Below, piece after piece: positions 33,772 through 60,768 of a stretch of DNA of 64,000 nt (positions are counted from its first letter, which is position 1; each line of letters starts with the position of its first letter). The translations under genes and the position numbers were made by a program. Location of the stretch: the NCBI GenBank assembly GCA_964017235.1, contig OZ024936.1, positions 18,638,496-18,702,495 of the forward strand. The letters run 5' to 3'. The stretch comes from Sabellastarte sp. h YS-2021 (Eukaryota > Annelida > Polychaeta > Sabellida > Sabellidae). The notes under the pieces were generated by a model. It saw nothing but the letters and a program-made list of their open reading frames with translations, did not search any database and was not told the origin of the DNA.

Positions 33772-34863
33772 TTAATCAGAAGTGACCCCATTGGATTCAG
33801 TTTCATATAATCTGTTCATGATATCTAACACTTCCATTGATGAAGGACGATTATTGCGATCAAACTGTACACATTTTGTAATCACATCAATTGCTGGATG
33901 CTTCTTGTGTTTTAATTTTTTTGGTACTTTTTCTGTGGATACTTTTTCTCTTAACAGTGCTCTGGGGTCTTTGGATGGGCCATAATAAAACTTTACAGGT
34001 CCTGAGCTACCCATCTCTTCTATATCCCAGAGGGACTCCCAAAACATCACTTGGTACAATGTGGCACCATAAGAATACACATCAGTGCTAGGAGAGGAAG
34101 TCTTTTGATGAAGAAGTACCTCGGGTGCCATGTAGGCGGGTGTACCAAGTCCGCCTACACCTGTGACTGATATTGTTTGAAAATTTGACTGTTTCATTTT
34201 ACCTAAGCCGAGATCACATAATTTGGCTTGTCTGTTGTAGGACATCATTATATTGGCAGGTTTGACATCACCATGTATTATATTCAGTGGTATTTGATTG
34301 TGTATGAAAGCCAAGGCTCTTGAAATATCTACCATTGCCTTATATTTTACTTTGTCTGAATTAAAATGATATTTCTCAATGAGATCATTATCATCCAAAA
34401 TATTTTCAAGGTTATGGCCATCTATAAGTTCATATACAATGAAAATACTTGGGCTTTTGGGCTGAAGGTCCATCGAATATCCAACGAATTGGACAACTGC
34501 TGGGTGTAAAACAGCTGCACTCACCCTGATCTCATTTACAATGGACTCATCTATGTGAATTTTCTTTTTCTTTTGTAGTCGAATTTCTTTCACTGCATAA
34601 TCTGTTCCAAGCCATGTAGCACGATACACATAACCATAACTCCCAGCTCCTAGTAGCTGGTTTCGATCAAGCTCTAACTTATTGATTTCAAAAGGTTTAA
34701 TGTCCTTCAACAAGTCTGGGTATAAGAGGCTACCATCTGATTGCTTTACCTGTGCTGTTGCGCCTGTATGGACGGTTTCTGTTGCTCCGCTTTCAGCATT
34801 ATGTTCAAGATTTCTTTTTGATGGAGCAGGTGACTGACTGTGGACAGAAATTCCATGTGATAC
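33772..34863 (-). CDS. Exon 9: protein kinase domain and C-terminus
   Basis: 364 codons including the TAA stop, after a TTCTTTAG acceptor. About 60 polar residues precede the kinase. Motifs: glycine loop GAGSYGYVY (residues 933-941), ATP-binding lysine in YAVKEI (Lys953), likely helix C glutamate in VNEIRV (972), catalytic loop HGDVKPAN (Asp1060), metal-binding DLG (Asp1078) and APE in GTPAYMAPEVL (1107-1109). All catalytic residues are present, so it should be active on Ser/Thr. HGD in place of HRD and DLG in place of DFG are found in tyrosine-kinase-like (TKL) families such as IRAK and RIPK relatives. Residues NRPSSMEVLDIMNRL near the end match the usual kinase C-lobe terminus; only about a dozen residues follow. 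Confidence 0.93.
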   Translation of the reverse strand, partial: VSHGISVHSQSPAPSKRNLEHNAESGATETVHTGATAQVKQSDGSLLYPDLLKDIKPFEINKLELDRNQLLGAGSYGYVYRATWLGTDYAVKEIRLQKKKKIHIDESIVNEIRVSAAVLHPAVVQFVGYSMDLQPKSPSIFIVYELIDGHNLENILDDNDLIEKYHFNSDKVKYKAMVDISRALAFIHNQIPLNIIHGDVKPANIMMSYNRQAKLCDLGLGKMKQSNFQTISVTGVGGLGTPAYMAPEVLLHQKTSSPSTDVYSYGATLYQVMFWESLWDIEEMGSSGPVKFYYGPSKDPRALLREKVSTEKVPKKLKHKKHPAIDVITKCVQFDRNNRPSSMEVLDIMNRLYETESNGVTSD

Positions 34864-37800
34864 CTAAAGAAAGTTACAAATTTTAAAACATTAGTTATAA
34901 ATGCACACTATATTCAAATTTGTAAAGAAGATTAAAATTTTTGTCCATCTATAAATATTAAAAATATTAGATATACTTAGATTGTAATCAAAACAGGAAA
35001 AAGCCCACTGTCTTATATTTCAACTTATCAGCTAAGCACTATTAAAATATAGCATACCTTTCAAGAATTTGAGCAACAGCTCTACACAACTTGACATATT
35101 ACATGAAATAAAGATGACTCAATCAGTGTTATCCCTATAAACAGCCAAAATGCTTCCACTTCTGAAGATAACATCTTGAATAATATGAAATAGATTCCAG
35201 AGCAACATATTCAGTAATCCCCTCCAAATTTGGAAAGCTGTGTATTTGTAACACGATGCACAGAAGTAAAAAGTGACAAATAATTTTTTAAGGAAAAAAG
35301 CTTTTAGATTTATAGAACTTTAGATAATAGGCCTGGAGACAAATTATTAAAACAAGACAATTTAACATGAAGGTGAAAGCATTAGTTTGAAAAGAAAAAC
35401 ATTGAAGCTGGAAAATTTGTTACTTAGAATAGAGATATGACCAATAAATACCACTGTTAGGTAGAAGTACAATATCATATGTAGGAATATTCAATAACAG
35501 CAATCCATAGAAGTTTATAATTGATCAAATGTGTATAGATTTATTATTTATTTGGTGTTTTAGGTCGCTTTCAACACTGTATAGGTCATATCATGACAGG
35601 TAGTTGGAAGGGCAGAGGAAACTAGTACATACAGTTTGTCAGGGTTCTGTACTGTAAACTGCCGATCAACAGCAAGCAACTACCAGCTTTCTCACTTGAG
35701 GCCATGCCGGGAACTGAACCCTGGCCTCAGAGGTGGGAGGCGAGAGTGTTACCACTCTGCCACCGTGGCCCCCCAAATGTGTATAGAAGAAAACATTGTA
35801 ACAGTTATATTCATGTAAATATGGTAAATGAAAGTTCTAAAATTTGAGTTAAATGATCAAATATTTCCTACATTTTCTACAAAGCTAACAAGAAATTATT
35901 TCAAATCTTTTCAAGTCCAAGGATACACTAGGAAGATCAAAGATCAGAGCAAGGTTAATTCATAGAGCTGCACAAATACATCCCAAAACAAACATTCCTT
36001 CCACCCCAAGTTGGAGCTTCTTGCATCTTACAGTTCTGAACTGTCCAAACTTTGAAAATTCCTAGGGTCAATGTCAGAGCCAAGATCAAAGGCCAAAGCA
36101 TGACATGGGTGAAAACAATACCTGCCTTTGTAGGCTGTAAGTTAAACAATTTAAATCCCTATAGATTTGAAGATTAGAGCTAAAACAAATGAAATGGAAC
36201 TTAGTTTAACTGTGAAATCAAACTTCAGGTTCTGTTCTGAAATGATGTCATGGAATAATTAAAAAGTACATGATCAACTTACACCAACGAAATGGATGAC
36301 ACTCAATAGCTCCTTACAGCAGAACATTTGCCACAATTTATGTATTATTTATTGAGTTAAGCAATGACGAACCATTTTTGTTGAAAAATGATGAATATTA
36401 CTGTTAAATCATAGCACTCACATGGACTAAAAGTAAAAAAAAAAGTTCACATCAAGAATTTTTTTGGAACATTTCATCACTGCCGCATAAAATGGCATAA
36501 GAGAGATAAGTTTAGAAACTATAGTACTGTAAGAGATATTGAGATGATAATCTGGAACTGGCATGGCTTAAAGCAATTAAACAAAGAATCCCTTTCATAA
36601 TTCAGGGGACAATATTGAAGTATGAAAAAAGACAAACTCCAAATAATGCTAAACACTGTCCAAATTTTTATTAACTAATAATAATTGTTTGTTATTGTAA
36701 AGTTATGTAATGGCTGATGATCACTATTTCAGTGACATTCTATAAACAAAAGTTTAAAACAATAACCGTTTTGTTATATTAATATTGTATATAGCCATTT
36801 TGGGTCACGTTTGTAGCCTCATGAGTTCTGAAATCAAGGGGCCAGATGTGCAGTTGCAATTTTGATAGAGTTTGTTATGAAGCTGACTGCTCATAACTTA
36901 AAACACTACCTTTATTTTATATTTCAATTGTTACACTTATGTAAGCATTTGAGCAACCTGTGCAATGTAAGTCCAATCTTGTAAATCAGCTAGATATCAC
37001 TAATTGATTAATTTGTTACTTTACAATTTATATTCAACACATTGCTTAGGTTATACCATGACAGGTAAGGGTATGCATCTTTTTGGTTAAGGTTCTACAC
37101 TAAAGACCAAGGGCTATTGTTAAGGAATTACTACCTCCCCTTTATAAATGGTTTATAGTTAGGTGTTAACTGGTCAAAGACAGCTTTTTCTGTGACATTC
37201 AACTGGTACAGCAACTGCAACTCATTATGACTGTGTTACCTCTGCTTGTGATGTTCTCAGCACTGGTGTAGTTTGAGGAGAGTGTTGGACATGTTGCTTT
37301 GTGTGGTGGCTGTGGACCCTTTCCATCATTTCGTACAGTGAATGCTGGTAGTGAAAGACAGAAATTATCAGGTGTCTCAACTTCTGCGGATCACGGCTCT
37401 CATGCAATGCCTGGATTAAGATACATGTTACTTTGTAGAATTTTTGTGCATGAATCTCACCTTATTTTTGTGCCATTGTTAATAAAGAGAAAAATCACAC
37501 CAAATGAAATCAGTTATTAAAGGCTTTATTTCTGAATTTAATTAGCAATTATTACTGTGTTAAATAAGATTACATTATGATTTATCAGCTTTGAAAATTT
37601 CTTTATGTTATTTCACAAAACCGACAGTTGTATCCACAAGCAAACTTTTATTGTACATATGTCAAAAACATTTACATTTTGCTCATTTAATCTAGCTTGG
37701 AACACAAATTGTACACATTTGTCCCGATTTATCTATACACGATAATTCTGTCTGCATATGGTTTACAGCTGTTTCAGATATCTAACACCAGCTTCTTATG

Positions 37801-40800
37801 AGCAAAAAGGCCTTTTGTGATGATTAATGTGGTAATTTAGCATCATATAATGAACAAACAGTATGTTATCAATTATTTCTGGTAATGACAAAGCTTTAAA
37901 ATGACTACCATTTAATCTAGTGTTCTCAATAAACCCTTTTTAGTGGGACTGGGTAGGTAGTGATTTCAACGGGCGGGTACCCGGGTACTCGTGCCGATGG
38001 GCGATAATAGCTGATTCTACAAAAATCTACACATTTACAGACTTAAAACTCACACAAATAATGGGATTCAACCATTTACATTATTTCTTGTCGGCCACCT
38101 TTTTTGCATTCAAAACAGTATCACACGGAAGAAATGTTAAATAAAAAAGACTTCTGTACATTCAAAACACGGTTGTTTATATAAAAATGGAGTCACATGA
38201 CCTGTCACCCAGCTATCACGAAAGCACTGCACTATTGCTCGAATGTAGTTTCGGAATTGAAACTTCATTTTTTGTATCAGGTTTGTAAGTGAATTTTATA
38301 AATGCAAAATTATCAACAACTGTCTGAAAATATTGTACTTTTATTTATTTAAGGAGTGCATGTCACTATATAGCCAGTCCTACAGCATTGTATGTACTCG
38401 GAATTAGGTAACTGTGTTAATATACTGACGATTTTCCAAGTTTACCGACATTTGACAATGCATAAACAATCAAAATAAAAGATACATAAAATACTATAAA
38501 TGGGGTACAAGGGTGAGAAAACAATATTCTTGTGCATTTTAATTGAATAGTTTCATTTTTAGGTGAATTTATGAAGTCGAGATATGTCTGTACTCGGTCA
38601 GCCAACGTGGGCGATATTAACAGCAATAAAGCTTAGATTCGGGTACTCGGGTATGTGATTTCGGATTCGGGTAAATGTTCAGGGTTCGGGTACCCGGATA
38701 CCCATTGAGATCACTAATTTAATCTTATCCATATTTTATTTGAACAGCAATTAATTGTTTCTTTTTTCACTACAAACTAACACTGGCTTCCTATAGCTAT
38801 AAAGTATCTTGCTTGCACACATACCTGCTTTACACTGAAAGAACCTGAATTTATAAGGTTTCTGTGTTTCTGTGTTATGATTGTAAAAGGGAGGGACTTC
38901 ACAATGTCCAAGCTCACAAGCTCCATGGGAAAGTTAGGGTCCTTCAAAGTGTCTGCTGCTATATTCATGCAGAGTTCAACAGCAACCTAAGTGATATAAC
39001 TGAGAGCTTAGACTTAATGGGATACACAGTAACTCAGATATAACAATATTCAAAGTGTATGAGAAAGAAAAATCTTGTGAACGTTAATAAGTACCAGTAT
39101 TAACAAATAGTAATTTCAATAAAGATTGCAAATATACTTCCTGATTAACAAACCACAAGATATATTGTGACATTTAACTGAGTTTATATTAATATTTCTT
39201 TCTGAAATCATGTTCCATGCGTAAATTTTTCCACCCTCACTAAGAAGGATATGTTTTGGCAGCTTGCTTTTCCTTTTTTGTTTGCAAAATAGCTAATAAA
39301 TATGTATGCATGTATTTGATGAAATTTTCAGGAAATGTTGTCCATGGTACATTCAATTTCCAGGATCCCCGAATTTTTACAGTATTTTGCACCATTGCAC
39401 CCATTGCAATATTGAGGTGCTTGGTTTTCTGTAGTTGCGCACACTTCAACAGCTCTTGTTTTCAAATGTATTTAAGAACTGATTTTATGATCTTATTTAC
39501 ATGAAATAAAAACCAAACATCCACAATGAATGAGTAATGTTTCTATTATAAATTATTTTGACCTTTCAAGATAATTATAGATAAATTACGGTAAATATAA
39601 TTGGAGTGGATGATCCACATGTGTCTCAAAATGAATGTAAAAACTTACCTCTTGTTTGAAAAACCCTTCTTTGTCAAACATCTTATGGCAGATGTCATAA
39701 TGTTTTGAGATTTCTTTATCTGTAAATGTCACAAAAACATAGCACATAACAAAAACAGTAATACATGCTGAATTTATGGGAAAATATAATTATACAAATG
39801 AGGTTAAGTTATGCATTTATAAAAGATTTGGAGAACAACTTCTGCATTACAGACCCCAATCATGAATTAAGTTGAAATCGTTATTTTATGGTATATGAAC
39901 ATACCTATTATTGGTTTCTTGGGACGTGCACCTTGAGAGTGAATCTGGGACTCGTGTGGCAATAGACGGGAAAATCTCTCTCGGGTTTCCTCTACCTGTA
40001 AGATATTTGCAAAATTTGAAAGATATTCAACAACTTGTACATTTGTGAATATCAAAACTTTATAGCATCATGGAAAATATAGATGTTGGAGACAAAAATA
40101 GGAGCATATCAACTGAACTAAGGAAAACAAAATTTAGAGAACAGGTCACCTATCGCACTCTTATTGTTAAACAAATCAACTGAACCAAGTGTTGGAAAGT
40201 TACACAAATTAAGATTAATTCTAAAAAAGTGCTGAAGTAATAAACAATGTTATTTCATTTTTGGCATAAAAATCTGAAGTTGGGCTTATATCTATTAGCA
40301 AATTTAGTGTAATATTTAACAACAAAAAATCGGGTTAAAATCACTTTTCTGATAAAACAATCTAAGAATCCTGACTGTTAGATCATAAGTTGGGCTTAGA
40401 TTTTTAATCCATCTTAACATAAGTTAAGCACATTCAATCTGTAGGGTTAAAATAAAATTTAACTTCAAACTTTTTCTTGATATTAATTATTTTAACTTAA
40501 GGCCAATATATTCTAGCCTACCTGAAGATGGTCTGGCTCTTAAGTTGGGTTCCAAAACAATTATAGTATCAACTAAACATTGCATCTTGACACAGCATAA
40601 CACAGACGGAAACGCTTCATTACAATAAGCAAACAATTTCCCCAAATGAGATGTGATGACATGAAGTACTGTAAACCATTTTAGCTTGTGGCAGAGATCA
40701 AAGGTTAGATCTCACTCGGCATAAACATTCAAACACAATTTTCACAATATAAACCTGATAATATGGGAGAAGATAGGACTTTTGATCTGAACCACTCAAT

Positions 40801-43800
40801 TAATCTTGAACCATTGATGATAGGTAAAATCCAACACAAAAAGATTTGCAATGATTTCTTAAAGATTATTTCATATAAACACAAATAAATATTGATCCTA
40901 TTCCTGATCATAAGAGAAGCTGACATATTAAGTGTTTTAAGAAGTAAAATAAAAATATGCGAAAGCTAAATCCAGAGAACCTCACCAAGAAAATTTTGCA
41001 TTCTCTAGATTATCTTAAATATAAAAGACTCACGGTCAAATTTCTGATAGCTTGTAGTACATACATATATTTATTATATAATTTAATCAAAATATTATCC
41101 AAGTCGCAGTATAAGAGAATGTTGCCAACTTTTAAAGAATGGTTAAAATTTGATTGTTTCAAAATTGTCATTAACTTTGACAAGCCTTTTTACCTTTACC
41201 TATAGATGGTGACCAACTAAATCTAATTGCACTAGATCAAAACTTCTTAATTATCATGTCTGAAAGCAAAGTGCTTGACCATCTGACAACAAATATATCT
41301 CAACTTTTATTTAGAGATTTTACAAAGTATTTTCATTTTCAGTATATGGTACATCTAATCACACTTGATTAATTTTATTCCAGTACTTAAATGACTACAT
41401 TGGGTCAGTTTTATAGTAAACTTTGTGAAGCAATCGCATCTTACACAGCCACTTAGTGAAAGATATTACATGTGCAACTAACCTCATTACTGCTTTTCTG
41501 GTTATTCCTTTGAAACATTTCAAGCTCAGCTTTCAGCCGAAGTATGCCATCTAAAAAGATAATTTTGATATAAAGTATAGTTTTAACCAGACCCTTGGTT
41601 GTCCCAACTCTATAAATAAAACATCAAAACTGGCTTTAAAATTTAACATTTTCATCTATTACTTTTAACATTATCATGATGATTTGAAAATATTTATAAA
41701 CTGCAGAGGTAATGATGCCTGTGCCTCTACTGTAAGGGGCAATACCAAACTGCTTGCACAAATAGTGCATTAGTTTAATTATTCACTGTTACTTTTATGA
41801 AGCAAGGTAGAGTGCTGCTAACATCTTTGGAGTGATGATTTTGAAAAATCAAGATGAACAGCAATATATTTTACAGTTTGACATAATGAATTCTAAAGAA
41901 AATCGAATATTTCAAAGCTTTCATTCTAATAAAATAAATGACTCGAGAAGTTAAGATCAATGTCCATAGTACAGTTATATTTATAAACTGTAAACAATAA
42001 ATATGAAGAAAATCAAGAAAATCATGTATTTAAAGTCAGAGTTTTTAATTCTGAATATGAAAATGTTTTTCAGAAACTGTAAGATTGCTGTACATATACA
42101 AAAAGTGGTGATGATACCATACACCAGCGATTATATGAAGAAACATGAAGAAAAGTTTTACAGCTGGAGGCACATAATTTGCCACTTATCTTCTGAAAAA
42201 AACACAGATGATTGTGACTGGACTGCATTAAATTACTAACACTGATTCAAAATGTTTAAGTATGACTTCATCTAAAGGTCTTTCGGATGAGGGAGTTAAG
42301 TGATATAAAACTCCTTGTTACATTAGAATACACTTTAGTAAACACCTGTTGGCTCCTCTACACATGCTCAAATTTTGTAAATATTGTTTCACATGGTAAT
42401 TCTTTTGAAGCTACAAACAAGAAATTCATGTAATTTTGTAGGTACTTCATCGTACCTTGTGTTGCTTTTATATTTGAGGTAGTTTGGCTGTTTATTCATT
42501 TGAATTTCTAGAGAATGGTACAAGTTGTAATTCAGCATTTGAACTTAAATAATTTTTTTACTGGATTTTAGTGCAAGAAAATGGGCAAAAGCAGGGTTTA
42601 ATGCCTTTCCAATGATATATAATATGTATCAATGGCTTAAGCAGTTTCTAAAATATTTGTAAGATGACCATCTGTTGAGACATAGCTCATTGTAATCTTT
42701 ATATGGCATTTTTAAGCATAAGCTTTAGTGAGGCTTGTGTTTCTGATGGCTTCTGATGGCAAAACACTTTTCAGTTTTGTTTACATACAAATAAGATGTG
42801 TATACCACCCTAGAGAAAATAATACAGAATAGTTTATTTTCCTTCCAGAGTAAATACTGTTTGTAAATTTTTGAGGCAATATGTCCAGAAATTGTTTATT
42901 AGATAGAAGAAAGAATAAATAGAGCCATAAATATGAAAGTGATAATAACCCAAAATAGTTCAAACATCATAGCTTAATGACCTCTCAAACTGTTAAAAAT
43001 AAGCCAGTTAGGGACTGCAAGTTATAGAACAATACCCAAGCTACAAAGCCCATTAATTTACCATGTGTAGATACAGGACTTTGGTCTTCTGATTCATACT
43101 GCCTATTTAATTTGCGAAGTGCCCCTGTAAGAATTGTCCTCCTATCAGTGGTTGCTTTTGCACCATCTCTCCACTGAATCAACATGGCCCAGGCAGCATA
43201 GCTGTGGTCTCCAGAATGTTTCTCATAGATACCTTCAAGGTCATGATAGTTCCACCCGAGGGCAGCACCAAGTTGCTTCCATTTGTCACCTAATTTTGTG
43301 GCTGCCTCGTGCAGGAACTCATTGTCTAAGCCTGTAAAATATAATCAATAATAATAATAATATTACAGTTTTTTCACATTTACAATGCCATAAAATATTA
43401 ACAAAGCCACTATGAATTTATTCCCACTTTTGTTACAAAATCACTTTAAAAATATTTTCCTATGTGTTAATACTATATGTTATATGTGTAGTCTTTTCTG
43501 AAAGATCTTGTCACAAACATTATATGACAAAAATTAGTACACATAATTGAAATAAAGAGAAGAAAAGGTGTCAGTGATGAAATGTACCCTTCATATCTAA
43601 GACAGCAACTATCTCAGAGTTTTGTTTCTCTTTGGCAATTTCTAATGGTGTCAATCCATCTTTGTTTGAGATGAGAGTAGCACCATATCTGAGGAGAACC
43701 TTGGTAATCTCCAGCAAGTTTTCCCTCACAGCTATGTGTAATGAAGTGTCACCATCATTTCTTTGAGCGCTGACATCTGTACCCTTGTTACATAACAATT

Positions 43801-46800
43801 CCACCACTTCTAACTGGTTCTCTAAACAGGCTATCAGCAGTGGAGTTTGTCCATCGAAACCTCGGCTGTTTATGTTTGCATTTTGGGCCAGTAATGCGTC
43901 AACCACAGCAGCATGACCATTCCTCACTGAAATATATATATTAAAAGAGACATTTTTTTTTTTTTACAAAAAAATTATAAACAATTTTGACCTTACAAAT
44001 CATGACATTTAACAATAGTGCTAGTGATTTACATCATCATTATTTTCAATATAATTTAGTTGGTATTTCAATAATGAACATATCATTATTAAAATATCTC
44101 TGAAAGGATAACCTCCTTGCCTGATAATTAAATCTTATCAAAACTTATATCACTCATGAAGATGAAAAATACAATCCTTGTGCTATGTACTCAGGTAATA
44201 CTATCATTTTGATTTGAGCTAACTTAACATTATAATATAATAATTTTTTATATATGAATAGGTATATAACCAAAAGACTGGGTTGCTGATTATGAACATT
44301 GAAAATATCACTTCAGGATAGGCTTGTGATTGCAAACTGCTCGTTGGTCTGTTTTCTGTGATAATTTGTTTTGATATCATTGTCTTCAGTATTTTTGTGA
44401 CAGTATTCTATAAATATAAATTTTTACAAATAAAAATGTCTCGGAAAGTTGAAATTTTTACTGCATTACTTTTATTTGATAGGTAAAGTGTGACAGAAAT
44501 TACATGAGCGACTTAATACCAAGAAATATTTGATGCCTATTTTGCCACACTACCCCACACCATAAACAACAGACAATAAAAGCACTACCCTATAAGCTAT
44601 GTGATAAAAAACAATTCAAAGCTCGAAATACAAACAACAAAAGTCACAAAATCATTATTACAGTTTGACCCCCCTAGTTTTTACTTGATGATCTGCTTTA
44701 TGGGACCGGGTTTGCTGTGGCAATAGCCTTGTTCTTTAATGGTAAAAGTGCTGGGATCATATCCCCATATTGGAGATTTGCCCCTTTCATAATACTTTTC
44801 AATGGGGTGGGACTAAGGGCTTGTGTGGGGGCTTTAGGTTTGAACCGTGTTTTACTATATTTGTATTTTTAAGCAAAAGAGAGTTTCAACCCTGATGTAC
44901 TTTGTCTCTTTTGGGGGTTGTTTTGTGGGGTGCTTTCTTTTTTGTGTGTGAGTTTGAACCTTTACTTCTTTTTGGGGAATAATAATTATCCAATTATTCA
45001 ATGTATGAATGTGGGTCACTTACAATTAAACTTGGGGGGTTAAACTGTAATAATGATTTTGTGACTTGTCTTGTTTGTATTTTTGAGCTTTGAAATGTTT
45101 TTATCTTATAGCTTATTAGCTCATAGCTCAACTATGGGGCACTGAAAAGGGCTTTCAAAATGTAAGCATAAGCTGAGCTGAAGAAGGCTGGCTACTACTG
45201 CTGGTCATCTGTGAGGACAATTGACATAGTGGAACTATCCACTAATCTTGATTGATCATACAGATATCAGATCTGTATATATTGAAATATACCTAACTTC
45301 AAACGAGTTGTTGATGGTAAAATTGGTGTTTTAATATGTTTCACTAACAGTAACACCACAACGACTCTTGAAATGTTCACACTGGGTAACACATGTTTCC
45401 ACAAACATACCAAAAGTGTCAAATTGATGACTTAAACTTGGCTAAAAACGTGGTTTTCCAAAATAAGGAGTACATTTCAAGAAGATAAACAAGTATTATT
45501 TAATATTGTTGATATATGAATGTAAAATGGTGGATTAGTTACCAGAAATATATTGTCTAACATGTCAGATCAAGAACCTGTCCACAAAAAATTATGAAGA
45601 TCCCATTATCATTTGTACCCGACAAATAACAGAAAAACCAAAAATCATAAATAACACAAACTAATTTAATAAGGAAATGTGGATTATCAGTATATCTTAA
45701 TGGCACACTATGTTAATTTTATCATTCTATCAAGTAACTGCATGTATTGTCTGAATATATTTGTGTATCTTTAAATGTCATACTGTTGCATAAAATTTGC
45801 TCGAAATTGCTCTATCTCTTGCAGTTTTCGAGATATTGACACTTTTCCATTTTCCGCAAAAATCCAAGATGGTCGCCAAAAGTAGCGAAAATTGAAATAT
45901 TTCCCTTTTGCACAGGACAATCTTGTACCACCCTGTGGGTCAAAAATTCACTGGAAATTCCTCTATCTGTTACGGTTTTCGAGATATTGACACTTTTTCA
46001 TTTTCCGCAAAAATCCAAGATGGCCGCCGAAAGTGGCGAAAATTGAAATTCCCCCCCTCCCCTTTGCACAGGAGACTCTTGTACCACCCTGTGGATCAAA
46101 GATTCGCTCGAAATCGCTCTATGTCTTACGGTTTTCGAGATATCGACACTTTTCCATTTTCCGCAAAAATCCAAGATGGCCGCCGAAAGTGGCGAAAATT
46201 TAAATTTCCCTCCTTTGCACAGGAGACTCTTGTACCACCCTGTGGGTCATAAATACACTCAAAATCGCTCTATCTTTTACGGTTTTCGAGATATTCACAG
46301 TTTTCCATTTTCCGCTAAAATCCAAGATGGCCGCCGAAAGTGGCGAAAATTGAAATTTTTCCTTTTTGCACAGGACACTCTTATACCACCCTGTGGGTCA
46401 AAAATTCGCTCGAAATCGCTCTATCTCTTACGGTTTTCAAGGTATTGACAGTTTTCCATTTTCCGCTACAATCCAAGATGGCCATCGAAAGTGGCGAAAA
46501 TTGAAATTTCACCCCTTTGCAAAGGAGACTCTTGTACCATCCTGTGGGTCAAAAATTCGCTCGAAATCGCTCTATCTCTTACAGTTTTCGAGATATTGAC
46601 TCTTTTTCATTTTCCGCAAAAATCCAAGATGGCCGCCGAAGGTGGCGAAAATTTAAATTTCCCTCCTTTGCACAGGAGACCCTTGTACCACCCTGTTGGT
46701 CAAAAATTCGCTCAAAATCGCTCTATCTCTTACGGTTTTCGAGATATTGACTCCTTTTCATTTTCCGCGAAAATCCAAGATGGCCGCTGAAAGTGACAAA

Positions 46801-49800: not shown

Positions 49801-52800
49801 TATAAGCATTTTTATGTTTTGCAATTTTTGCAAAAAATTCGAAAATTCAAAATGGCTGCCATTTTGTGCGAGACAAAATTTTTTTGAAAATTGGCATGGC
49901 TACTCTGCAGATATACCCTGTGGGTCAAAAGTCGCTCTATCTAATACGGTTTTCGAGATATAAGCATTTTTATGTTTTGCAATTTTTGCGAAAAATTCGA
50001 AAATTCAAAGTTGCCGCCATTTTTGGCAAGACCAAATTTTTATGAAAATTGGCATGGCTACTCTGCAGAGATACCCAGGAGACTCTTGTACCACCCCGTG
50101 GTTCAAAAATTTGCTCGAAATCGCTCTATCTCTTATGATTTTCGAAATATTTGTGATTTTTCACATTTTCACTAAAAGTAGCAACAAAGTAGCCATTACT
50201 CACTTGTACATCGAGCAACAGTTGTAAAACATAAATATGTTACAGTTCACAAAAAAGTACATGAACAAGATATTTAAGAGAAAATGTGTAGCTGCAATAC
50301 TTTTGAAGATATAAGCCATTTACTCATTATGGTACTCATTCCAAATTGACCAAGTAGCTATTACTCACTTAGCTATGGAGATACACTTCCAAACCGCTGA
50401 CCATGTTGTAGCTGTGGAGAAAATAGCTGAACAACATACTGGAACAAAATACTATAAATGCAATAGTTTGACAGATATAAGTCATACAATTATATTAGGA
50501 AAAAGTGTTGTTACTCACTCAAAAGTAGGCCAAAGTTCACCAAACCTTTTTCCACTTAGCATAGGATACTCTTGTACTACCCTGTGGGTCAAAAATTCGC
50601 TCAAAATTGCTCTATCTCTTACGGTTTGCGAGATATTTTGGATTTTTGACATTTTCAGTAAAAGTAGCAATAAAGTAGCCATTACTCACTTGTACATTGA
50701 GCAACAGGTATGAAACTTAAATATGTTACAGTTCACAAAAAAGTAGATGAACAACATATTTGAGAGAAATGGTGTAGCTGCAATACTTCTGAAGATATAA
50801 GCCATTTACTCATTATGGTTATCATAAAAATTTGACAAAATAGTAGCTATTACTCACTTACCTATGGAGATACACTTCCAAACTACTGACCATGTAGTAG
50901 CTGTGGAGATAGTAGCTGAACAACATATTGGAACAAAATTGTGTAGCTGCAATACTTTTGAAGATATAAGCCATTTACTCATTATTAGGAAAAGGTGTTA
51001 TTACTCACTCAAAAGTAGGCCAAAGTTCACCAAACCTTTTTCCACTTAGCATAGGATACTCTTGTACTACCCTGTGGGTCAAAATTCGCTCAAAATTGCT
51101 CTATCTCTTACGGTTTGCGAGATATTTTGGATTTTTGACATTTTCAGTAAAAGTAGCAATAAAGTAGCCATTACTCACTTGTACATTGAGCAACAGGTGT
51201 GAAACTTAAATATGTTACAGTTCACAAAAAAGTAGATGAACAACATATTTGAGAAAAATGGTGTAGCTACAATACTTTTGAAGATATAAGCCATTTACTC
51301 ATTATGGTTATCATAAAAAATTAACAAAGTAGCTATTACTCACTTAGCTATGGAGATACACTTCCAAACTACTGACCATGTTGTAGCTGTGGAGATAGTA
51401 GCTGAACAACATATTGGAACAAAATTGTGTAGCTGCAATACTTTTGAAGATATAAGCCATTTACTCATTATGGTTATCATTAAAAATTGACAAAGTAGTT
51501 ATTACTCGCTTAGCTATTGAGATACACTTCCAAACCACTGACCATGTTGTAGCTGTGGACAAAGTAGCTGAACAACATATTGCAACAAAATGCTGTAAAT
51601 GCAATAGTTTGAGAGTTATAAGCCATATAAATATATTAGCTAAAAGTGCTATTACTCACTCACAAGTAGGCCAAAGTTCACCAAACCCCAAAAAATTTGA
51701 AGAGCAAAAAAATTCATTAGGACAACTAATTTACCAAAAATGTGTAACTGTAGTAGTTTCAGAGGAAACTGCGTGACACACGCACGCACGCACGTACGCA
51801 CACACATGGTGCAAATTATAATCTCCCGCCGGCGAGCCGGGCGGGAGATAATGATAAAAACAACACTGTGTGTGAAGTTTCCATCATTGTTAGTGAAGTT
51901 TTCAGCATTTTAAAGCACACTTGTGATATCATTCTACTGTTGAAAGAGTCCATTAGTTTTAGGTAATGCACACTTTTTGTTATAATTTACAAACACCTAA
52001 TATGGTCAATTGGTTTTTGCCTGAACCATGACATAAACACTATAAACTGAGAAAATAACTTTGAAATAAATAAATGGAGAATTAATAATTCTACTACATA
52101 ATACAAACTGCATAACTAGTTCGCTTGTCCCTTATCTTGTCACGAAATTTTTATGTTAGAAAATAATTCACCCTTTCATCAATGGAATGACATAACACGT
52201 GTGTTTCAATTCTAGTAAATTAGCCAAGTTATCCAATTCATTTGCCTAAAACATGTTCAGAGTTATAAACAAATTATTATAGTCACTTTTGTTCCTGCTT
52301 TTCATTTTAGTGTGGAAAATTTTCAAGATAGAAGAAATACTAGAAACCTGTATTCACATATAGGAATGAGTAACAAAATTATTTGAACAATATTGACAGA
52401 AAGAAAGGCTAATCAAGTGTTTTGAGATTTTGGTTAAATGGTTTGCCAAGCCATTTAAAAAAAATTATTAAGAGTGTATTATTACAGGGTTGTATCAAAA
52501 AGAATTTGAGTTTCAATGTTCGGTAAGCATTCAAAAGTGTGCCTCACTGGCACATGTTTTCATACTTTACATATTATGTAAGTGACGTTTCTAGTGTTAC
52601 AACTTTCCCAGCACTAACCTCCACAACATGAGGGAATTTATTGCCAAGTTCATATAAATTATTGTTATGCAATGAGGTTTACATGTGATATGTTAAGTAT
52701 TACAGAGGTTTTGTATACGGTAAGTAACGTTATATAATTTCCATAGGAAATATGCTACGTTTGAAGTGGATGCATTTGTTTAGAAATACGTTCATATGAA

Positions 52801-55800
52801 GGAATGCAGGTCAGATTCATTTCTTTGATGTACTACAAAACAAACATGCTTTGTAATCAGGTAATGTATATGGGAAACTATAGTTAACTGAAACTGGACG
52901 AAAATGTCCTGTACATATGTATCTACATATGGGATATCATATATTTATTTGTATATGTCTGTTTTTTTAATAAAATTGATACGGGTGAGTGAAAGTAAGT
53001 AAGTTGCCCTTTACGTGTAAAATTAAATGTAATGGACCTCTGACATGGAGAGGTTGCGCACTGCATTTTTGACTCCCGTAAATGTTAAAAATGCAATTCT
53101 TAGTCATGAGTTGTTGTGTGAAATGTCATATCTGGAGAGACTCTACAGTAGAAATTAGCGTTTGATACACGGTTGAGGCCTGATTTACATACATATAGGA
53201 AAACAAATATGTGTACAGTAGTTTATAACACTTTCTGTTTTCATCTAATTTTAAATGGACAGTAAATTTTATTACCCCCCCCACTTCCTTGAGAACTCTT
53301 TCATCCATAGATGGATATAGAAGGCTAAACTTATGCAAATCATTGTTATACAATGTTGTTTACTGCTAATAGACTTCAGTAATATATAATTTTGATGACA
53401 GCTTTAAAATAGGTTTTGAATTCACATCTAACATATATTTAAATACCTTTGACCTAACACTTTAAACACTTTATATATCTTTTTTTTTCATTTAAGACGT
53501 GTCCCTATTCTACTACAGCAATGCCATATGTGTATAATATGGCTTATTAAAGCATGGAATGGCGTGGTTCTTAAACCATACTGAGAGTGTTTTAATTACC
53601 TGCACTCATCATTTTATGCACTGTAAAATAATAATGATATCACTAACTTGTAGATTGCACTGGTAAATTGCTGTTTATAATAAACATTGATTTACAAATC
53701 ATCTTTTTTAAGAATTAAAAAATGCTGGTTTAAATACCAATAGAGAGGTTATGCTCTACATTTTTTTTTCACTCCCGCTAATGTTAAAAGTAGCTTAATG
53801 ACGTCATAAATTGTAGATCTTAATGTTTTATACGCAAATGAAGCCTGAGTTACACACACAGTTTCCATTAATATTTTTAATGTATTTATAAACTGTATAT
53901 TTGGAAAATTGATGAATATATACCTAGAAAAATATATGTAGGATCATTTATAATACCAACTCATCAATCCAATGTAAAATGATCAGTAAATGAAGTTTAT
54001 TTTTCATAAGTAACCATAATAAATAACACAAAAATATTAAGGTCAAGCTCATTTAAATCATGGTTACACAATATTGTTAATGGTTCATACATTTTTAGAA
54101 AACATTTTTATTTTGGTGTTTATTTTATACAATGATAGAATGTGTCTGCTTTCTCCGTTTTTGACAAAACTATCTTTTCTTTGTGTTGACATATATGAAA
54201 TAGGCTTTGAATACACATCAAACATATATTTAACACTTTTCAAGTTCCTCTACAGTCTATGTAGTGTGCAACCTTTCCAGTGACTTATGTGTTTAGAACC
54301 ACAATTTATACATCGATTAACATTCTTTGAATTTAAATATTTCATGTTGGATATTAATTTTATCGCTCAATATAGTTTTTCTTGTGCCTTTTGTTCACAC
54401 ACGTGTCTTGATAAACTAGTGTTTTTAACCATGTGTTTCTAAGTTTTGATATTATCATTAAGATAACGTTCTAATCATAAGTTTTGACTAAAAAAAAACA
54501 GTTACGCTAAACATTATCTTTGTTTATTTTTAATGAGCACATTTAAATGCAGATCAGTTAACCCTTATAAAATGAATATCAATAAATGTTAAAAAAGTAT
54601 TATTAATATGAAATTTCAATTTAAAAGACACATTAACAAAACAAAGTAAACATTTCCCACAAACCTGCAGAGTACAGAGGTGTGTTTCCATTGTTCATTG
54701 ATAAATTGACATCAGCTCCATGTTGGAGTAAAACACTGACAACATCCACATGTCCATTCTGTGATGATATATATAATGGACTGTAACCATCAGTACACTG
54801 TGAATTGACATCAGCTCCATGTTGGAGTAAAACACTCACAACATCCACATGTCCATTGTGTGATGATATATATAATGCACTGACACCATCAGTACGCTGT
54901 AAATTGACATCAGCTCCATGTTGGAGTAAAACACTCACAACATCCACATGTCCTTTGTATGCTGATATAAATAATGCACTGTCACCATCAGTACACTGTG
55001 AATTGACATCAGCTCCATGTTGGAGTAAAACACTCACAACATCCACATGTCCATTCTGTGCAGATATATGTAATGGACTGGCACCACTAGTACGCTGTGA
55101 ATTGACATCAGCTCCATGTTGGAGTAAAACACTCACAACATCCACATGTCCATTGCATGCTGATATAAATAATGCACTGACACCATCAGTATGCTGTGAA
55201 TTGACATCAGCTCCATGTTGGAGTAAAACACTCACAACATCCACATGTCCATTCTGTGATGATATATATAATGGACTGACACCATCAGTATGCTGTGAAT
55301 TGACATCAGCTCCATGTTGGAGTAAAACACTCACAACATCCACATGTCCATTGTGTGCTGATATAAATAATGCACTGGAACCACCAGTACGCTGTAAATT
55401 GACATCAGATCCATGTTGGAGTAAAACACTCACAACATCCACATGTCCTTTGTATGCTGATACATATAATGGACTGACACCATCAGTACGCTGTGAATTG
55501 ACATCAGCTCCATGTTGGAGTAAAACACTCACAACATCCACATGTCCATTCTGTGATGATATATATAATGGACTGACACCATCAGTATGCTGTGAATTGA
55601 CATCAGCTCCATGTTGGAGTAACAGTCTCACCACACCACTGTGGTTGTTGAGACTGGCCACATACAGTGGTGTGGTCTTGTCCTCATACTTCCCTCTATT
55701 GACATCTGCATTATGTTTGAGTAACACACTGACAACTTGTTCATGTCCATAAAAAGCAGCACACCACACTGCTGTCTGACCACCTTTACTCTGACTGTTT

Positions 55801-56075
55801 ACACTAGCCCCGTGTTCTACCAGTAGTTCCACCACTTTACTGTGGTTATTGTCTGCTGCTCTTATCAGTGCTGTATGCTGATATTCCTTCTCCCTCACTT
55901 CAGTGTCTGCACCCTGTGACAACAGGAACTCTACTACACTCACACTGTTGTACTGACACGCTACATACAAAGGTGTACAACCATCATCATCTGTACAGTT
56001 TATACTGGTTCCTTTTGAAAGACACTCCTTTACAACAGTTACATTATTAGTTTGTGCAGCTTTAAATATATCCAT
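33772..56075 (-). CDS. Ankyrin-repeat / death-domain / protein kinase gene (nine exons)
   Basis: Exons on the minus strand: 56075-54665, 43926-43588, 43331-43062, 41550-41483, 39995-39905, 39719-39649, 38986-38825, 37410-37240, 34863-33772. All eight introns have GT-AG ends and matching phases. The coding length is 3675 bases, giving 1224 residues. Domains: ankyrin repeats (about 1-583), death domain (about 585-670), linker with possible coiled coil (674-911), kinase (about 925-1205). There is no signal peptide or membrane segment, so it is cytoplasmic. Inferred role: ankyrin repeats bind a partner, the death domain assembles a complex, the kinase phosphorylates targets. Domain content recalls IRAK (death-kinase), DAPK (kinase-ankyrin-death) and RIPK4/ANKK1 (kinase-ankyrin), but the order differs from all of them. 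Extra small exons in the large introns cannot be excluded. The start is the first ATG, shared with the paralogue at 351. Confidence 0.85.
34864..37239 (-). other. Intron 8 of the kinase gene
   Basis: Contains a minus-strand SINE at 35540-35773 and a diverged AGGTCA-family unit at about 35915-36125. A worn minus-strand SINE tail may lie at about 37040-37125. No other coding sequence recognised. Confidence 0.6.
35540..35773 (-). mobile_element. tRNA-derived SINE in intron 8
   Basis: Complete copy on the minus strand: head GGGGCCACGGTGGCAGAGTG, box B relic GGTTCAGTTCCCGGC, body, then TTGAAAGCGACCTAAAACAC and an A/T-rich tail. A 14-base target duplication CAAATGTGTATAGA flanks it (35526-35539 and 35774-35787). 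Low divergence and perfect flanks mark it as young. Confidence 0.92.
37240..37410 (-). CDS. Exon 8: His-rich linker
   Basis: 171 bases between AATCCAG and GAG/GTAACA, exactly 57 codons. Encodes LRHLIISVFHYQHSLYEMME, then a polar His/Gln/Thr stretch that is probably disordered and leads to the kinase exon. Confidence 0.75.
37959..38715. mobile_element. Inverted-repeat element with CGGGTACCCG termini, in intron 7
   Basis: The left end AGTGATTTCAACGGGCGGGT then ACCCGGGTACTCG recurs inverted at the right end (AGTGATCTCAATGGGTATCC then GGGTACCCG). Subterminal CGGGTA/TACCCG motifs are repeated on the right side. The body of about 650 bases is non-coding. Probably a non-autonomous DNA transposon; target duplication not resolved. 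Confidence 0.65.
38825..38986 (-). CDS. Exon 7: helical linker
   Basis: 162 bases between CACTTAG and CAG/GTATGT, exactly 54 codons. Encodes VAVELCMNIAADTLKDPNF and MELVSLDIVKSLPFTIITQ then a QKHRNLINSG stretch. It may form a small helical domain together with exons 6 and 8, but I do not recognise it. Confidence 0.75.
39649..39719 (-). CDS. Exon 6: linker
   Basis: 71 bases between TTTACAG and GAG/GTAAGT. Encodes DKEISKHYDICHKMFDKEGF then FKQE, probably helical. Phase 1 in, phase 0 out. Confidence 0.7.
39905..39995 (-). CDS. Exon 5: basic linker
   Basis: 91 bases between CTTACAG and ATAG/GTATGT. Encodes VEETRERFSRLLPHESQ then a basic, proline-containing stretch ending PKKPII. No domain recognised. 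Confidence 0.7.
41483..41550 (-). CDS. Exon 4: short linker, possible coiled coil
   Basis: 68 bases between TTTTTAG and GAG/GTTAGT. Encodes GILRLKAELEMFQRNNQ and KSSNE; the L-x2-L-x3-L spacing suggests a short coiled coil. Phase fits both neighbours (G/AT codon at the 5' side). Confidence 0.7.
43062..43331 (-). CDS. Exon 3: death domain
   Basis: 270 bases after a TTTTACAG acceptor. It encodes a six-helix death domain pattern: FLHEAATKLGDKWKQLGAAL (helices 1-2), GWNYHDLEGIYEKHSGDHS (helix 3), YAAWAMLIQWRDG (the conserved ML..W helix) and ILTGALRKLN (helix 6). The domain fills the exon almost exactly. Death domains assemble homotypically in immune and cell-death signalling. Ends CATG/GTAAAT. 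Confidence 0.9.
43588..43926 (-). CDS. Exon 2: ankyrin repeats 15 (end)-18
   Basis: Follows a TATTTCAG acceptor. Codon 471 is split as G/TG, restoring the repeat TPLYSAV-RNGHAAVVDALL across the intron. It holds GQTPLLIACLENQLEVVELL, GDTSLHIAVRENLLEITKVL and GLTPLEIAKEKQNSEIVAVL. These are less alike than the exon 1 units. It ends AAGG/GTACAT in phase 1. Confidence 0.88.
45780..46810 (+). repeat. 151-base tandem array with AAGATGGCCGCC
   Basis: Seven units with a spacing of 151 bases (one of 156), measured on the AGATATT in TTTTCGAGATATT at 45831, 45982, 46138, 46289, 46440, 46591 and 46742. Each contains CCAAGATGGCCGCCGAAAGT, TTGTACCACCCTGTGGGTCA and CGCTCGAAATCGCTCTATCT. Since 151 is not a multiple of three, reading frames rotate from unit to unit. 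The overlapping open frames here are repeat artefacts. Confidence 0.92.
46905..47215 (+). repeat. Two units of a roughly 170-base repeat
   Basis: Units contain TCTATCTAGCACAGTTTTC, AAGATATAAGCATTTTTGTG and a TTCAAAATG-like end. The same family resumes at 49390-50060 on the other side of the 134-base array, as if one array had been split. Confidence 0.8.
47265..49385 (+). repeat. 133/134-base satellite with three-unit higher-order organisation
   Basis: About 16 units. GTGAAAGCTCT recurs at 47281, 47415, 47548, 47681, 47814, 47948, 48081 and so on to 49372. Three unit types alternate. A has CTCCCAAAAGTAGGTGAATG and GGCTATCTGC. B has CTTCCAAAAGTAGG and CTTTTAAGAGATAATTCGC. C has AAGTACATGAATGAG and GGGTATCCGCAATAG. 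An A-B-C block of 400 bases repeats (47681-48081, 48570-48970, 48970-49372), with shortened blocks between, including one unit with a deletion near 48190. Confidence 0.92.
49386..50075 (+). repeat. About 170-base array with AAAATGGCCGCCATTTT
   Basis: About four units. Each has GGCATGGCTACTCTGCAGAG, ATACCCTGTGGGTCAAAAAT, CGGTTTTCGAGATATAAGC and the near-palindrome AAAATGGCCGCCATTTT. Confidence 0.88.
50085..51780 (+). repeat. Three units of a roughly 480-490-base repeat
   Basis: CTTGTAC(T/C)ACCC(T/C)GTGG recurs at about 50095, 50571 and 51061. Units contain AGTAGCCATTACTCACTTGT, GAAGATATAAGCCATTTACT and GGAGATACACTTCCAAAC, parts of which repeat again inside a unit. The first lines share TACCACCCTGTGGGTCAAAA with the 151-base and 170-base families, so all are related. 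Confidence 0.85.
51821..51849 (+). other. Perfect GC-rich hairpin at repeat-block end
   Basis: ATCTCCCGCC at 51821-51830 and its reverse complement GGCGGGAGAT at 51840-51849, with a 9-base loop. It follows alternating ACGC/CACA at 51775-51806 and marks the right end of the 6 kb satellite block. Confidence 0.85.
51880..52380. repeat. Segment paralogous to 58.45-61.07 kb (without the insertion there)
   Basis: AAAGCACACTTGTGATATCA, TTTTTGCCTGAACCATGACA and AGATAGAAGAAATACTAGA align in order with 58.47-58.53 kb and 60.77-61.05 kb. This copy lacks the 2.2 kb inverted-repeat element. Confidence 0.75.
52600..53040. repeat. Dispersed repeat unit shared with the gene's upstream region
   Basis: TACGTTTGAAGTGGATGCAT, TTTCTTTGATGTACTACAAA and GGGTGAGTGAA..GTAAG are found again at about 56690-56950 and 57410-57720. 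Non-coding. Confidence 0.65.
54665..56075 (-). CDS. Exon 1: ankyrin repeats 1-15 (start)
   Basis: Codons 1-470 plus one base. Repeats 1-4 are varied. Repeats 5-14 are ten 33-residue units almost identical to each other, of the form GVSPLYISSQNGHVDVVSVL followed by LQHGADVNSQ and two variable residues. Hallmarks TPL/SPLY, GH and GADVN are in place. The exon ends in a GCAG/GTTTGT donor inside repeat 15. The coding sequence repeats with a 99-base period. Confidence 0.92.
54690..55680 (-). repeat. 99-base coding tandem array within exon 1
   Basis: Ten tandem units, each encoding one ankyrin repeat. The segment for GHVDVVSVLLQHGADVN is nearly invariant at DNA level, including third positions (plus strand ACATCCACATGTCC in most units). 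Variation is confined to the loop (Y/F/H, S/A, Q/H/K, R/H/C). This indicates recent expansion or gene conversion rather than old repeats held by selection alone. The reverse strand is also open over 315 codons, a by-product of the repeat. Confidence 0.92.
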
Positions 56076-56216
56076 CTTTATATTTTATTTTAGTTTGTAT
56101 ATGGTGATAAATTAATTCAAATTAATTGTGTATATATTAGTTTCATACGGTTTGAACACTCCTCTGTTTCAAAGAAAATTAGATATCAGAAAGACTGTTT
56201 CTGCGTGAGTGCTCCG

Positions 56217-58525: not shown

Positions 58526-60768
58526 AGGCAATACTACGGAGCCCAGGGAGAGACGTACAAGTCGTTCCCACAAGATAGTAAGTCATTCCCACAAGTTAAA
58601 TAGTCGTTCCCACAAGATAGAAAAGTTGTTACCACAAGATACTTATTTTAGGCAATACTACGGAGCCCAGGGAGGGACGTACAAGTCGTTCCCACAAGAT
58701 AGTAAGTCATTCCCACAAGTTAAATAGTTATTCCCACAAGATAGAAAAGTCATTACCACAAGATACTAAGTCGTTCCCACAAGTTAGCAAGTCATTCCCA
58801 CAAGATAGTAAATTGTTCCCACAAGATAGAAAGTTGTTCCCACATGATGCTAAGTCGTTCCCACAAGATACTAAGTCATTCCCACAAGTTAGAAAGTCGT
58901 TGCCACAAGCTAGAAAGTTCTCACAATATAGCAAGTTATGGTAATGAGATGTTAAGTAGTGGTAATGAGATACTAAGCCTTGGGAATGAGATGTTAAGTC
59001 ATGGGAATAAGATACTAACTTGTGGGAACAAGATACTAAGTGGTTACCACAAGATAGCAAATCCTTGTTTTATTTCATACTCCCCACTCATCAAGTTATT
59101 CCCACCACTTACTAACTCGTTCCCACCACTAATTAAGTCGTTCCTACCATGTACTCTCTCGTTCCCACCACTTAGTAACTCATTCCCACCATTTAATAAC
59201 TTTCCAACCACTTATTTAATCATTCCCAGGGACCAAAAATATGCAAACATGGGTTAACAATATTTATCATACATAATAGTTATAACAGTGAACACTAACA
59301 GCTTGGTAGTATTAATTATTATTATAGAAACTAGTTGATAATACATAAATTCATTTAAGATTGTTACGAGATAAAAGAAAGGAAAATTATTTACAACATA
59401 CATGAGCACATAACATTGTGGTTCTCCCCAAAAGGTGCCACATGCAGACACTAAAACCCAATTGGTAGTAAATTTCTACATTACCCATACCTATACTAGA
59501 AGAATTTAGAAATTTAGGCAGGGGGTTAAGACCAGGGCAAAAAATGGTAATTTTTTTGTTAGAAAATAAAGGTCTATGAAGAAAAAAATGTAAGTTATAG
59601 TGTAATGTATATAAAGAAGGAGTTGAGAATGAGAAGACTATGCAATTTACAATATGAAAAGACTATGCAAATTGCAGCACAGCAAACACGAGTTTTGCTA
59701 TGTGCAGATATAGCTTATATGAGAATCCAAAAGTGATCCTGCAAGGTATGCTGTGCCAAACAGCACCCAATCCAATGTAACATACTAAACTATCTTAGAA
59801 AGATGAAGGGAAGTGCCATATAACAGGCACCTCTAAAAGACAGTAATGCAATATACCTGTAATAATAAGTAGGTGACCTCTGAAGGTCATTAGGTAGGTA
59901 ACTAAGAAGAATAACCATTAAAATTGCTAAAACAATAGACATAATCATATAAAAGTTGGACATGTAAAATAATAGGAAACATTCAACCTACAGACATATG
60001 TAAACTTGAATGGTATGCCAGTAGATGGGTGGCCTCTATATAAGTTGGGTATCATAGACTAAAACATTGCCTGTATATTGGCATCAAAGCATGACTTAGT
60101 AAAACTTGTGGGAATGACTTCATATCTTGTGGTAATGACTTGCTATCTTGTGGTAATGACTTGCTAACTTGTGGGAACGAGTTAGGATCTTGTGGTACCG
60201 ACTTTCTAACTTGTCGGAATGACTTGCTAACTTGTCGGAATGACTTTCTATCTTGTTTTAACGACTTTTTAACTTGTGGGAATGAGTTAGTATATCGTTG
60301 TACTGACTTTGCTAACTTGTGAGAACAAGTTAGTACCTTGTGGTAACGACTTGCTAAATGACTTTTTATCTTGTAGTAATCACTTTATAACTTGTGGGAA
60401 TGACTTGCTAACTTGTGGTAACGACTTGCTAACTCATGGGACGACTTTCTATCTTGTGGGAAAGACTTCCTAACTTGTGGGAACGACTTTTTTTCTTGTT
60501 TTAACAACTTTCTAACTTGTGGAAATGAGTTAGTATCTTGTGGTAATGACTTTGCTAATTTGTGGTAATGACTTTGCTAACTTGTGGGAATGAGTTAGTA
60601 TCTTGTGATAACGACTTGCTAAACGACTTTTTATCTTGTGGTAATGACTTTATAACTTGTGGGAATGACTTTCTAACTTGTGGGAACGAGTTAGTATCTT
60701 GTGGTAGTGACTTTGCTAACTTGTGGGAACAAGTAAGTATGTCTCTTCCTGGGCTCTATACAATACAC
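58526..60768. mobile_element. Inverted-repeat element whose arms are 20-21-base minisatellites
   Basis: The left arm (58538-59060) repeats GTCGTTCCCACAAGATA with a 20-21 base period. The right arm (60098-60755) is the same array inverted (TATCTTGTGGGAACGAC). Both tips carry GAGCCCAGGGAGAGACGTAC-like sequence in opposite orientation. The left tip is itself duplicated (58526 and 58646). The paralogous empty segment at 51.9-52.0 kb and a CAATAC flank on both sides show it inserted as a unit. The 1 kb centre is non-coding; GTTCCCACCACTTA variants occupy 59080-59230. Confidence 0.8.

Follow-up and report, generated by a model that had tools for sequence, protein, structure and literature searches.

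Can a single chain encoded by one gene combine an ankyrin sensor with a death domain and a kinase, and what might such a protein do? The question is raised by a 64,000-nucleotide stretch of the annelid Sabellastarte sp. h YS-2021 (GenBank assembly GCA_964017235.1, contig OZ024936.1, positions 18,638,496 to 18,702,495 of the forward strand; hereafter the window), in which a sequence-only reading had placed nine in-phase exons that join into one protein of 1224 residues. Our analysis, which builds the gene model from splice sites and paralogue conservation and knows the gene from genomic DNA alone, arrives at the same figures. The mitochondrial COX1 of the same genome reads well with the invertebrate mitochondrial code (code 5), with serine at AGA/AGG and methionine at ATA. 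We lean towards the view that the locus encodes, as a single gene, an intracellular sensor kinase whose ankyrin array faces a changing ligand.

The predicted gene occupies positions 56075 to 33772 of the minus strand; all of its introns are GT-AG and its phases are consistent. The joined coding sequence of 3,675 nucleotides (1,224 amino acids) has one stop, which is terminal. In the predicted protein the ankyrin repeats (residues 1-583) are followed by a death domain (584-673), a middle segment (674-861) and the kinase exon (862-1224). Exon 1 (54665..56075, minus strand like all the others; phase 0 in, phase 1 out) contains the ATG, in the context ATAAAGATGG and four codons downstream of an in-frame TAA, and the first 470 residues, which form ankyrin repeats. 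Intron 1 splits a repeat that exon 2 (43588..43926; residues 471-583) completes in register before adding the last of the ankyrins. Exon 3 (43062..43331) encodes the death domain, and the middle segment is divided among exons 4 (41483..41550, 68 nucleotides), 5 (39905..39995, 91 nucleotides), 6 (39649..39719, 71 nucleotides), 7 (38825..38986, 162 nucleotides) and 8 (37240..37410, 171 nucleotides). Exon 9 (33772..34863) encodes a variable linker, the complete kinase domain and the stop. The corresponding minus-strand stop-to-stop open reading frames are 54633-56084 and 43571-43963 for the ankyrins, 42985-43344 for the death domain and 33772-34863 for the kinase. In the joined protein, Pfam identifies Ank (E 9e-132), Pkinase (E 8e-43) and Death (E 3e-4). 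In three paralogues, no Pfam model matches the middle segment at an E-value below 0.16, and TRADD-N does not match it. Scoring of splice sites and codons alone missed exon 7, misplaced the acceptor of exon 4 and proposed extra exons that were dropped; exon 7 and the correct acceptor were supplied by the paralogue comparison.

Two paralogues, B (C14:18415121-18445426, minus strand) and C (C14:19770175-19829921, plus strand), lie on the same chromosome, at distances of about 0.26 Mb and 1.1 Mb. Both contain counterparts of exons 2-9 in order, with exon 1 counterparts upstream, and keep the GT-AG sites and phases, the exon 9 acceptor excepted. This ordered conservation in two paralogous loci takes the gene model beyond chance. 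Across the main domains, protein identity to the window gene is 61-74% for B and 63-81% for C (61% and 81%, respectively, in exon 2), whereas the linker that leads into the kinase shows only 26-28% identity to each of them. The pairwise ratio of nonsynonymous to synonymous rates (dN/dS) among the three genes follows the same division: 0.40-0.53 in exon 2, 0.29-0.59 in the death domain, 0.43-0.54 in the middle segment and 0.29-0.40 in the kinase, against 0.68-1.07 in the linker. Thus, selection maintains the modules and leaves the linker almost unconstrained; the ratios indicate purifying selection on exon 2, the death domain, the middle segment and the kinase. It is very improbable, in our view, that the locus is a decaying duplicate and not a working gene. 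Degenerate-looking copies are present in the gene cluster, one of them in the window (judged by eye), but 1,224 codons are open, every splice site is GT-AG, the catalytic residues are kept, and dN/dS is 0.29-0.40 in the death domain and kinase against the two paralogues.

Does the model join two transcription units? An adaptor of ankyrins and death domain might end after exon 3 or 4, with a separate gene or isoform for the middle segment and kinase starting from a methionine in exons 4-8, where methionines are present. Nine death-domain exons, the window's included, are at least 65% identical to the window's, and just three of these loci have a kinase exon at least 66% identical nearby; three such kinase exons, again with the window's, were found among 97 candidates scored. 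In addition, a kinase on C5 (48% identical), which clusters in the tree with the three kinases of C14 (97/94), has relatives of exons 6-8 upstream and no exon-2 or exon-3 match within the 10 kb read. Because of this combination, the middle segment and kinase may be an older unit than the fusion in the window, or the C5 death domain may lie farther off or have been lost. On the other hand, phases join exons 3, 4 and 5 in three loci with GT-AG sites. Exon 9 of the window gene also has no start before its glycine loop: the loop is at exon residue 72, the catalytic lysine at 92 and the first in-frame methionine at 131, so this exon cannot encode a full kinase alone, although exon 9 of paralogue B does begin with ATG. 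We therefore regard two units as improbable and continue with the single gene.

For the death domain, Pfam Death scores 25.9 bits (E 1.1e-5) for the open reading frame alone and 21.2 bits in the whole protein, against a cut-off of 22.6, and NCBIfam has no model that matches it. A single-sequence search of the PDB gave weak matches only, the best of which is ankyrin-3 (E 0.04). With an 18-sequence profile, the RIPK1 death domain comes first (E 1.2e-10), followed by THOC1, FADD, CRADD, ankyrins and PIDD; no IRAK or MyD88 chain is found among the 45 PDB matches at E 1 or better, so that the profile search does not assign the domain to the IRAK/MyD88 type. The AlphaFold2 model (mean predicted local distance difference test score, pLDDT, 80) has four long helices. 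The first 26 Foldseek matches to it are all death domains, ankyrin G first, with weak E-values of 0.037 or more; the nearest by structure are the death domains of ankyrin, PIDD and TNFR1.

In the kinase, the glycine loop, the catalytic lysine, the HGD..N motif with the catalytic aspartate and asparagine, and the DLG and APE motifs are all intact. A tyrosine gatekeeper is found in the window gene, in B and C and in the C5 kinase, and in 7 of the 15 family kinases in all; among six reference kinases only IRAK4 has it, and DAPK1 has leucine. The tyrosine gatekeeper is described as an IRAK-family feature, and glycine before the catalytic aspartate as one of IRAK1, Pelle and PIK-1, in the portion of PMC3498205 drawn on here. 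In a tree of 21 kinases, the 15 from this genome fall on one side of a branch (99/98) and IRAK4, the sole IRAK in the tree, is nearest to them (67/89), but the approximately unbiased test does not reject clades with RIPK2 (p 0.10), DAPK1 (0.30), BRAF (0.12) or CTR1 (0.21). Structure databases were searched with the family profile as well: the best PDB matches are CTR1, BRAF, IRAK4, CERK1 and NEK7, high ranks are also reached by an EGFR construct and by a chain of the JAK family that has two kinase domains, and RIPKs and DAPKs are absent from the best 60 of 216 matches. With the single sequence, DAPK is absent from the best 60 of 2,312. The AlphaFold2 kinase model (mean pLDDT 73) matches kinases in general, with NEK7, ABL, PknB, ZAK and TAK1 among the first, and is uninformative for classing; 14 kinase-related NCBIfam models match, all far below their cut-offs. 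Pattern matches of the kinase exon in bacterial and archaeal (39) and viral (24) collections yielded no confirmed relative. We conclude from these sequence features that the gene encodes a predicted tyrosine kinase-like (TKL) kinase with an IRAK/Pelle-like active site. The earlier description of an IRAK-like kinase thus holds for the gatekeeper and the Gly-Asp catalytic loop; the tree is compatible with other placements too, and the death domain lies nearest to RIPK1 and FADD by profile.

Two further single-exon kinases (L021 at C21:21515908 and L023 at C3:1192830) are related to this family and very similar to each other. Both have an HQD catalytic loop, and the in-frame stretch ahead of each kinase is, by eye, Ig-like in appearance.

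Of particular interest is the ankyrin array: its presumed ligand face seems to change at an unusual speed, as would that of a receptor engaged in an arms race. Exon 1 contains nine in-register repeats of 99 bp, or 33 residues (residues 161-457; 54705..55595, minus strand), with a mean pairwise identity of 92.6% in DNA and 83.0% in protein. The 20 distinct base changes among them are 18 nonsynonymous and 2 synonymous (18:2), and all but one of the 18 nonsynonymous changes fall in repeat positions 1-16, the remaining one in 17-33. Positions 1-16 we take, from the known ankyrin register, to be the hairpin and inner helix, and the concave face is likewise placed by repeat register. At eight positions taken from ankyrin-design work, which were named after the protein repeats had been inspected, the nonsynonymous difference is so large that only 136 of 20,000 random eight-position sets equal or surpass it. 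In other arrays of the cluster the counts are 17:2 in the 12 repeats of array C (14:1 in positions 1-16), 16:0 in the 7 repeats of array E (C14:18568240-18569530), all of them in positions 1-16 (P 0.006), and 32:10 in the 7 repeats of array F (C14:18375650-18377110), with 20:2 in positions 1-16. The more diverged array B has 56:24 (35:11 in positions 1-16) and no excess.

The signal stands out better in site-corrected distances. For the 23 unique repeats of the window array, C and E, the proportion of nonsynonymous differences (pN) is 0.094 and that of synonymous differences (pS) 0.015, a ratio of 6.1, and the fraction of codon bootstraps with pN no greater than pS is 0.0006. In positions 1-16 the values are 0.185 and 0.017 (ratio 10.9), against 0.009 and 0.014 (ratio 0.6) in positions 17-33; for positions 1-16 alone the ratio is 3.4 in F and 1.0 in B. 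When F is added, the 30 unique repeats give 31:3 in positions 1-16 (P 0.007) and 13:9 in positions 17-33. Between loci, repeat pS is 0.008-0.016 among the window array, C and E (0.016 between the window array and C) and about 0.12 with F, whereas the window gene and C differ by a pS of 0.21-0.53 in exons 2-9. This low repeat pS suggests that the repeats of the three loci were recently homogenised or copied from one locus to another, or that they arose by expansion of a common unit. No 99-bp repeat is common to two loci unchanged, and the 30 DNA-distinct repeats encode 30 distinct peptides. We read this as concerted evolution together with diversifying selection on a putative sensor array. The sensor role that the sequence-only reading gave to the ankyrins gains support from the excess of amino-acid changes in the hairpin and inner-helix half; ligand binding itself we infer.

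Several results weigh against the reading of a single sensor kinase with a selected array. In simple count tests, the nonsynonymous excess is only suggestive in the window array (P 0.059, or 0.036-0.096 with other transition weights) and in C (P 0.067), and is weaker in F (P 0.40) and in the 30 pooled repeats taken whole (44:12, P 0.19 against the neutral fraction). The overall pN/pS of the more diverged arrays B (0.6) and F (0.9) shows no excess. The division at position 16 was chosen from the window array and then applied unchanged, as a prediction made beforehand, to C, E and F; because descent and exchange link the repeats to one another, the figures are not strict probabilities. Elsewhere in the gene, the exon 9 acceptor lies at a different point than in B and C. 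A search of the genome (1.79 Gb, 647 contigs) with PF00531 returned 68 matches that do not include the window's own death domain, which by profile is nearest to RIPK1 and FADD and not to IRAK. In the tree, the kinase groups weakly with IRAK4, and other clades are not rejected. Finally, family members of equal score occur in pairs about 168 kb apart (C14:17924883/18092834, 17964809/18132741, 17959336/18127268 and 17936213/18104167); these may reflect a recent segmental duplication or an assembly artefact (haplotype duplication), and an artefact may inflate the copy counts given below.

The borderline single-array counts of the window array and C, the few independent changes (18 nonsynonymous and 2 synonymous in the window array) and the pooled whole-repeat count, which is not significant, would also fit an account in which the pattern is minisatellite noise, that is, recent copying with relaxed constraint at exposed residues and no positive selection. 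Relaxation, however, yields pN/pS values up to about 1, not the 4-11 seen here; arrays C and E and the comparisons between loci repeat the pattern, and positions 1-16 of the pooled repeats show it too. If the reading frame is shifted, the changes of the window array count as 14:6 and 16:4, which differs little from 18:2. Noise of this kind is, in our judgement, an improbable explanation, and diversifying selection on the array is the one that we retain.

What, then, might the protein do? In the mechanism that we propose, the tandem ankyrin array would bind an ever-changing ligand, most likely a foreign or pathogen-derived protein, and binding would expose or concentrate the death domain. The death domain would then self-assemble or recruit death-domain adaptors, and the assembled C-terminal TKL kinase, with its IRAK1/Pelle-like active site, would phosphorylate downstream signalling proteins. 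Germline diversification of the arrays would come about through expansion of repeats and through exchange between tandemly duplicated loci of ankyrins and death domain, with selection acting on those residues of the hairpin and inner helix that form the concave face. The stronger statement, that this is a receptor kinase acting inside animal cells whose sensor is diversified in the germ line, in which tandemly duplicated genes reshuffle near-identical repeats between loci, the ligand face is selected and at least three loci have a non-RD kinase of their own, we put at somewhat short of an even chance.

We infer an immune or cell-death function for the gene, as the sequence-only reading had done. 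The fusion could also be real and serve another arms race, such as allorecognition, gamete interaction or the control of selfish elements, since diversifying selection marks a conflict but not which kind; fungal repeat receptors, for instance, have been linked to non-self recognition (PMC4986451, in the part consulted). We consider this unlikely, as a death domain and a non-RD kinase are described as typical of immune signalling (PMC3498205, PMC8463890, in excerpt). A germline-diversified receptor kinase of this kind would be the animal parallel to the fast-evolving repeat receptors found in fungi, but with no NOD domain. The fast-evolving sensor, death domain and kinase in one chain would short-cut the usual relay from receptor through adaptor to IRAK, and how invertebrates without antibodies match changing pathogens inside the cell would become testable.

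The order of domains can be compared with several known families. DAPK1 has ankyrins, a death domain and a CaMK-type kinase, with the kinase first; the window protein has the order ankyrin-death-kinase, a tyrosine in place of the leucine gatekeeper, and no ROC match in the Pfam scan. ANKDD1A/B-type proteins have ankyrins followed by a death domain and no kinase, and the window protein shares that order and adds a kinase. To our knowledge, the IRAKs are without an ankyrin array and RIPK4 and ANKK1 are without a death domain. RIPK4 and ANKK1 resemble the window protein in having a kinase and ankyrins, but the kinase is N-terminal and the ankyrins C-terminal (PMC9573974, as excerpted), the reverse of the order found here. 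The claim that the order ankyrin-death-kinase differs from those of DAPK and RIPK4/ANKK1 is thus borne out for one predicted gene. Like the protein described here, IRAK and Pelle have a death domain before the kinase, a tyrosine gatekeeper and glycine before the catalytic aspartate (PMC3498205, same portion); in the window protein ankyrins precede the death domain, which resembles that of RIPK1 and FADD, and the grouping with IRAK4 reaches 67/89.

The closest precedent for the architecture is in amphioxus. In a table of PMC9573974, 8 of the 19 Branchiostoma floridae rows have leucine-rich repeats (LRRs), then DEATH, then a kinase, and none of the rows pairs ankyrins with DEATH. These RIPK homologues, like the window protein, are single chains that begin with a repeat sensor, continue with a death domain and end with a kinase, and intra-chromosomal duplication is reported for their genes in the same source. 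The likeness is one of domain order: the amphioxus proteins have LRRs where the window protein has ankyrins, and no LRR is found in the latter by Pfam at E 0.001. The earlier statement that the architecture is not represented in the standard families was therefore too strong, and the window gene is, on its predicted sequence, an ankyrin version of a domain order already known. A chain of ankyrins, death domain and kinase was not found in the open-access literature searched, outside which most subscription journals lie. Some proteins of Amphimedon, in one lineage, combine death-like domains with ankyrins or kinases (PMC8195603, in the excerpt used); they are centred on TRADD-N, with the death-like domain first and ankyrins or a kinase after it, unlike the window protein.

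For the array itself, the closest likeness is to fungal NLRs, which also have near-identical tandem ankyrin repeats, differences in copy number and selection on concave-face positions. In the consulted part of PMC4986451, the selected sites are on the concave surface (inner helices and hairpins) with one exception, and internally conserved ankyrin repeats are rare in metazoa (0.8%). The fungal proteins are NOD-centred, whereas no NOD, NACHT or NB-ARC is found in the window protein by Pfam. The repeat identity here is 83%, against the 85% cut of the fungal study, and copy number is compared between paralogues here and not between individuals as in that study (PMC4986451).

The window gene belongs to a cluster. 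Among the 150 candidates scored of 1,313, 15 first-exon copies, the window's included, lie at 17.6-19.8 Mb of C14, with open frames of 209-483 residues that cover nearly all of query residues 1-162. Of the 21 death-domain loci examined (from 26 matches), 18 have an exon-2-like ankyrin exon ahead of the death domain, and among 21 other or paralogous loci with a death domain, 6 have an exon-4 match downstream of it. For exon 8 there are six matches and for exon 7 there are four (E 0.05); at C14:18323100-18324007 both are present, with no listed kinase match nearby.

Partial and degenerate copies accompany the cluster. About 6 kb to the right of the window, C14:18708675-18708965 repeats the beginning of exon 1 (query residues 1-97) at 99% identity and is, by that identity, a very recent duplication. 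At the left edge of the window, positions 345-1 of the minus strand are the start of another first ankyrin exon (65% identical; C14:18638361-18638843). On the minus strand at 17228-15689 lies another ankyrin exon, with 41% identity to exon 2, and after it a fragment that resembles the beginning of a death domain (AERLGDQWKLLAPRIG); set by eye against its relatives L054 and L057, the downstream part looks frame-broken, and this is probably a decayed copy of ankyrins and death domain. A partial kinase duplicate, with a 64% match to the kinase end (residues 318-362), lies just past the kinase of paralogue B (C14:18413404-18413538). Far from the cluster, C14:99087324-99087479 has a 44% match to exon 8 within an open frame of 390 residues.

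The remaining features of the window are repeats and mobile elements. Within intron 1, which is 10.7 kb long, successive families of minisatellites occupy about half of the length: the blocks extend from 45792 to 51626 with one gap and have units of 133-486 bp (near 133, 151, 158-169 and 486). Arrays of a 21-bp minisatellite (motif near AAGTCATTCCCACAAG) in opposite orientations are found at 58559-60740. By eye, parts of the minus strand also look like fragments of non-LTR reverse transcriptases (8301-7357, 26278-25379 and 13991-13396) and, at 18565-17352, like a gag-protease piece of a retroelement with a zinc knuckle.

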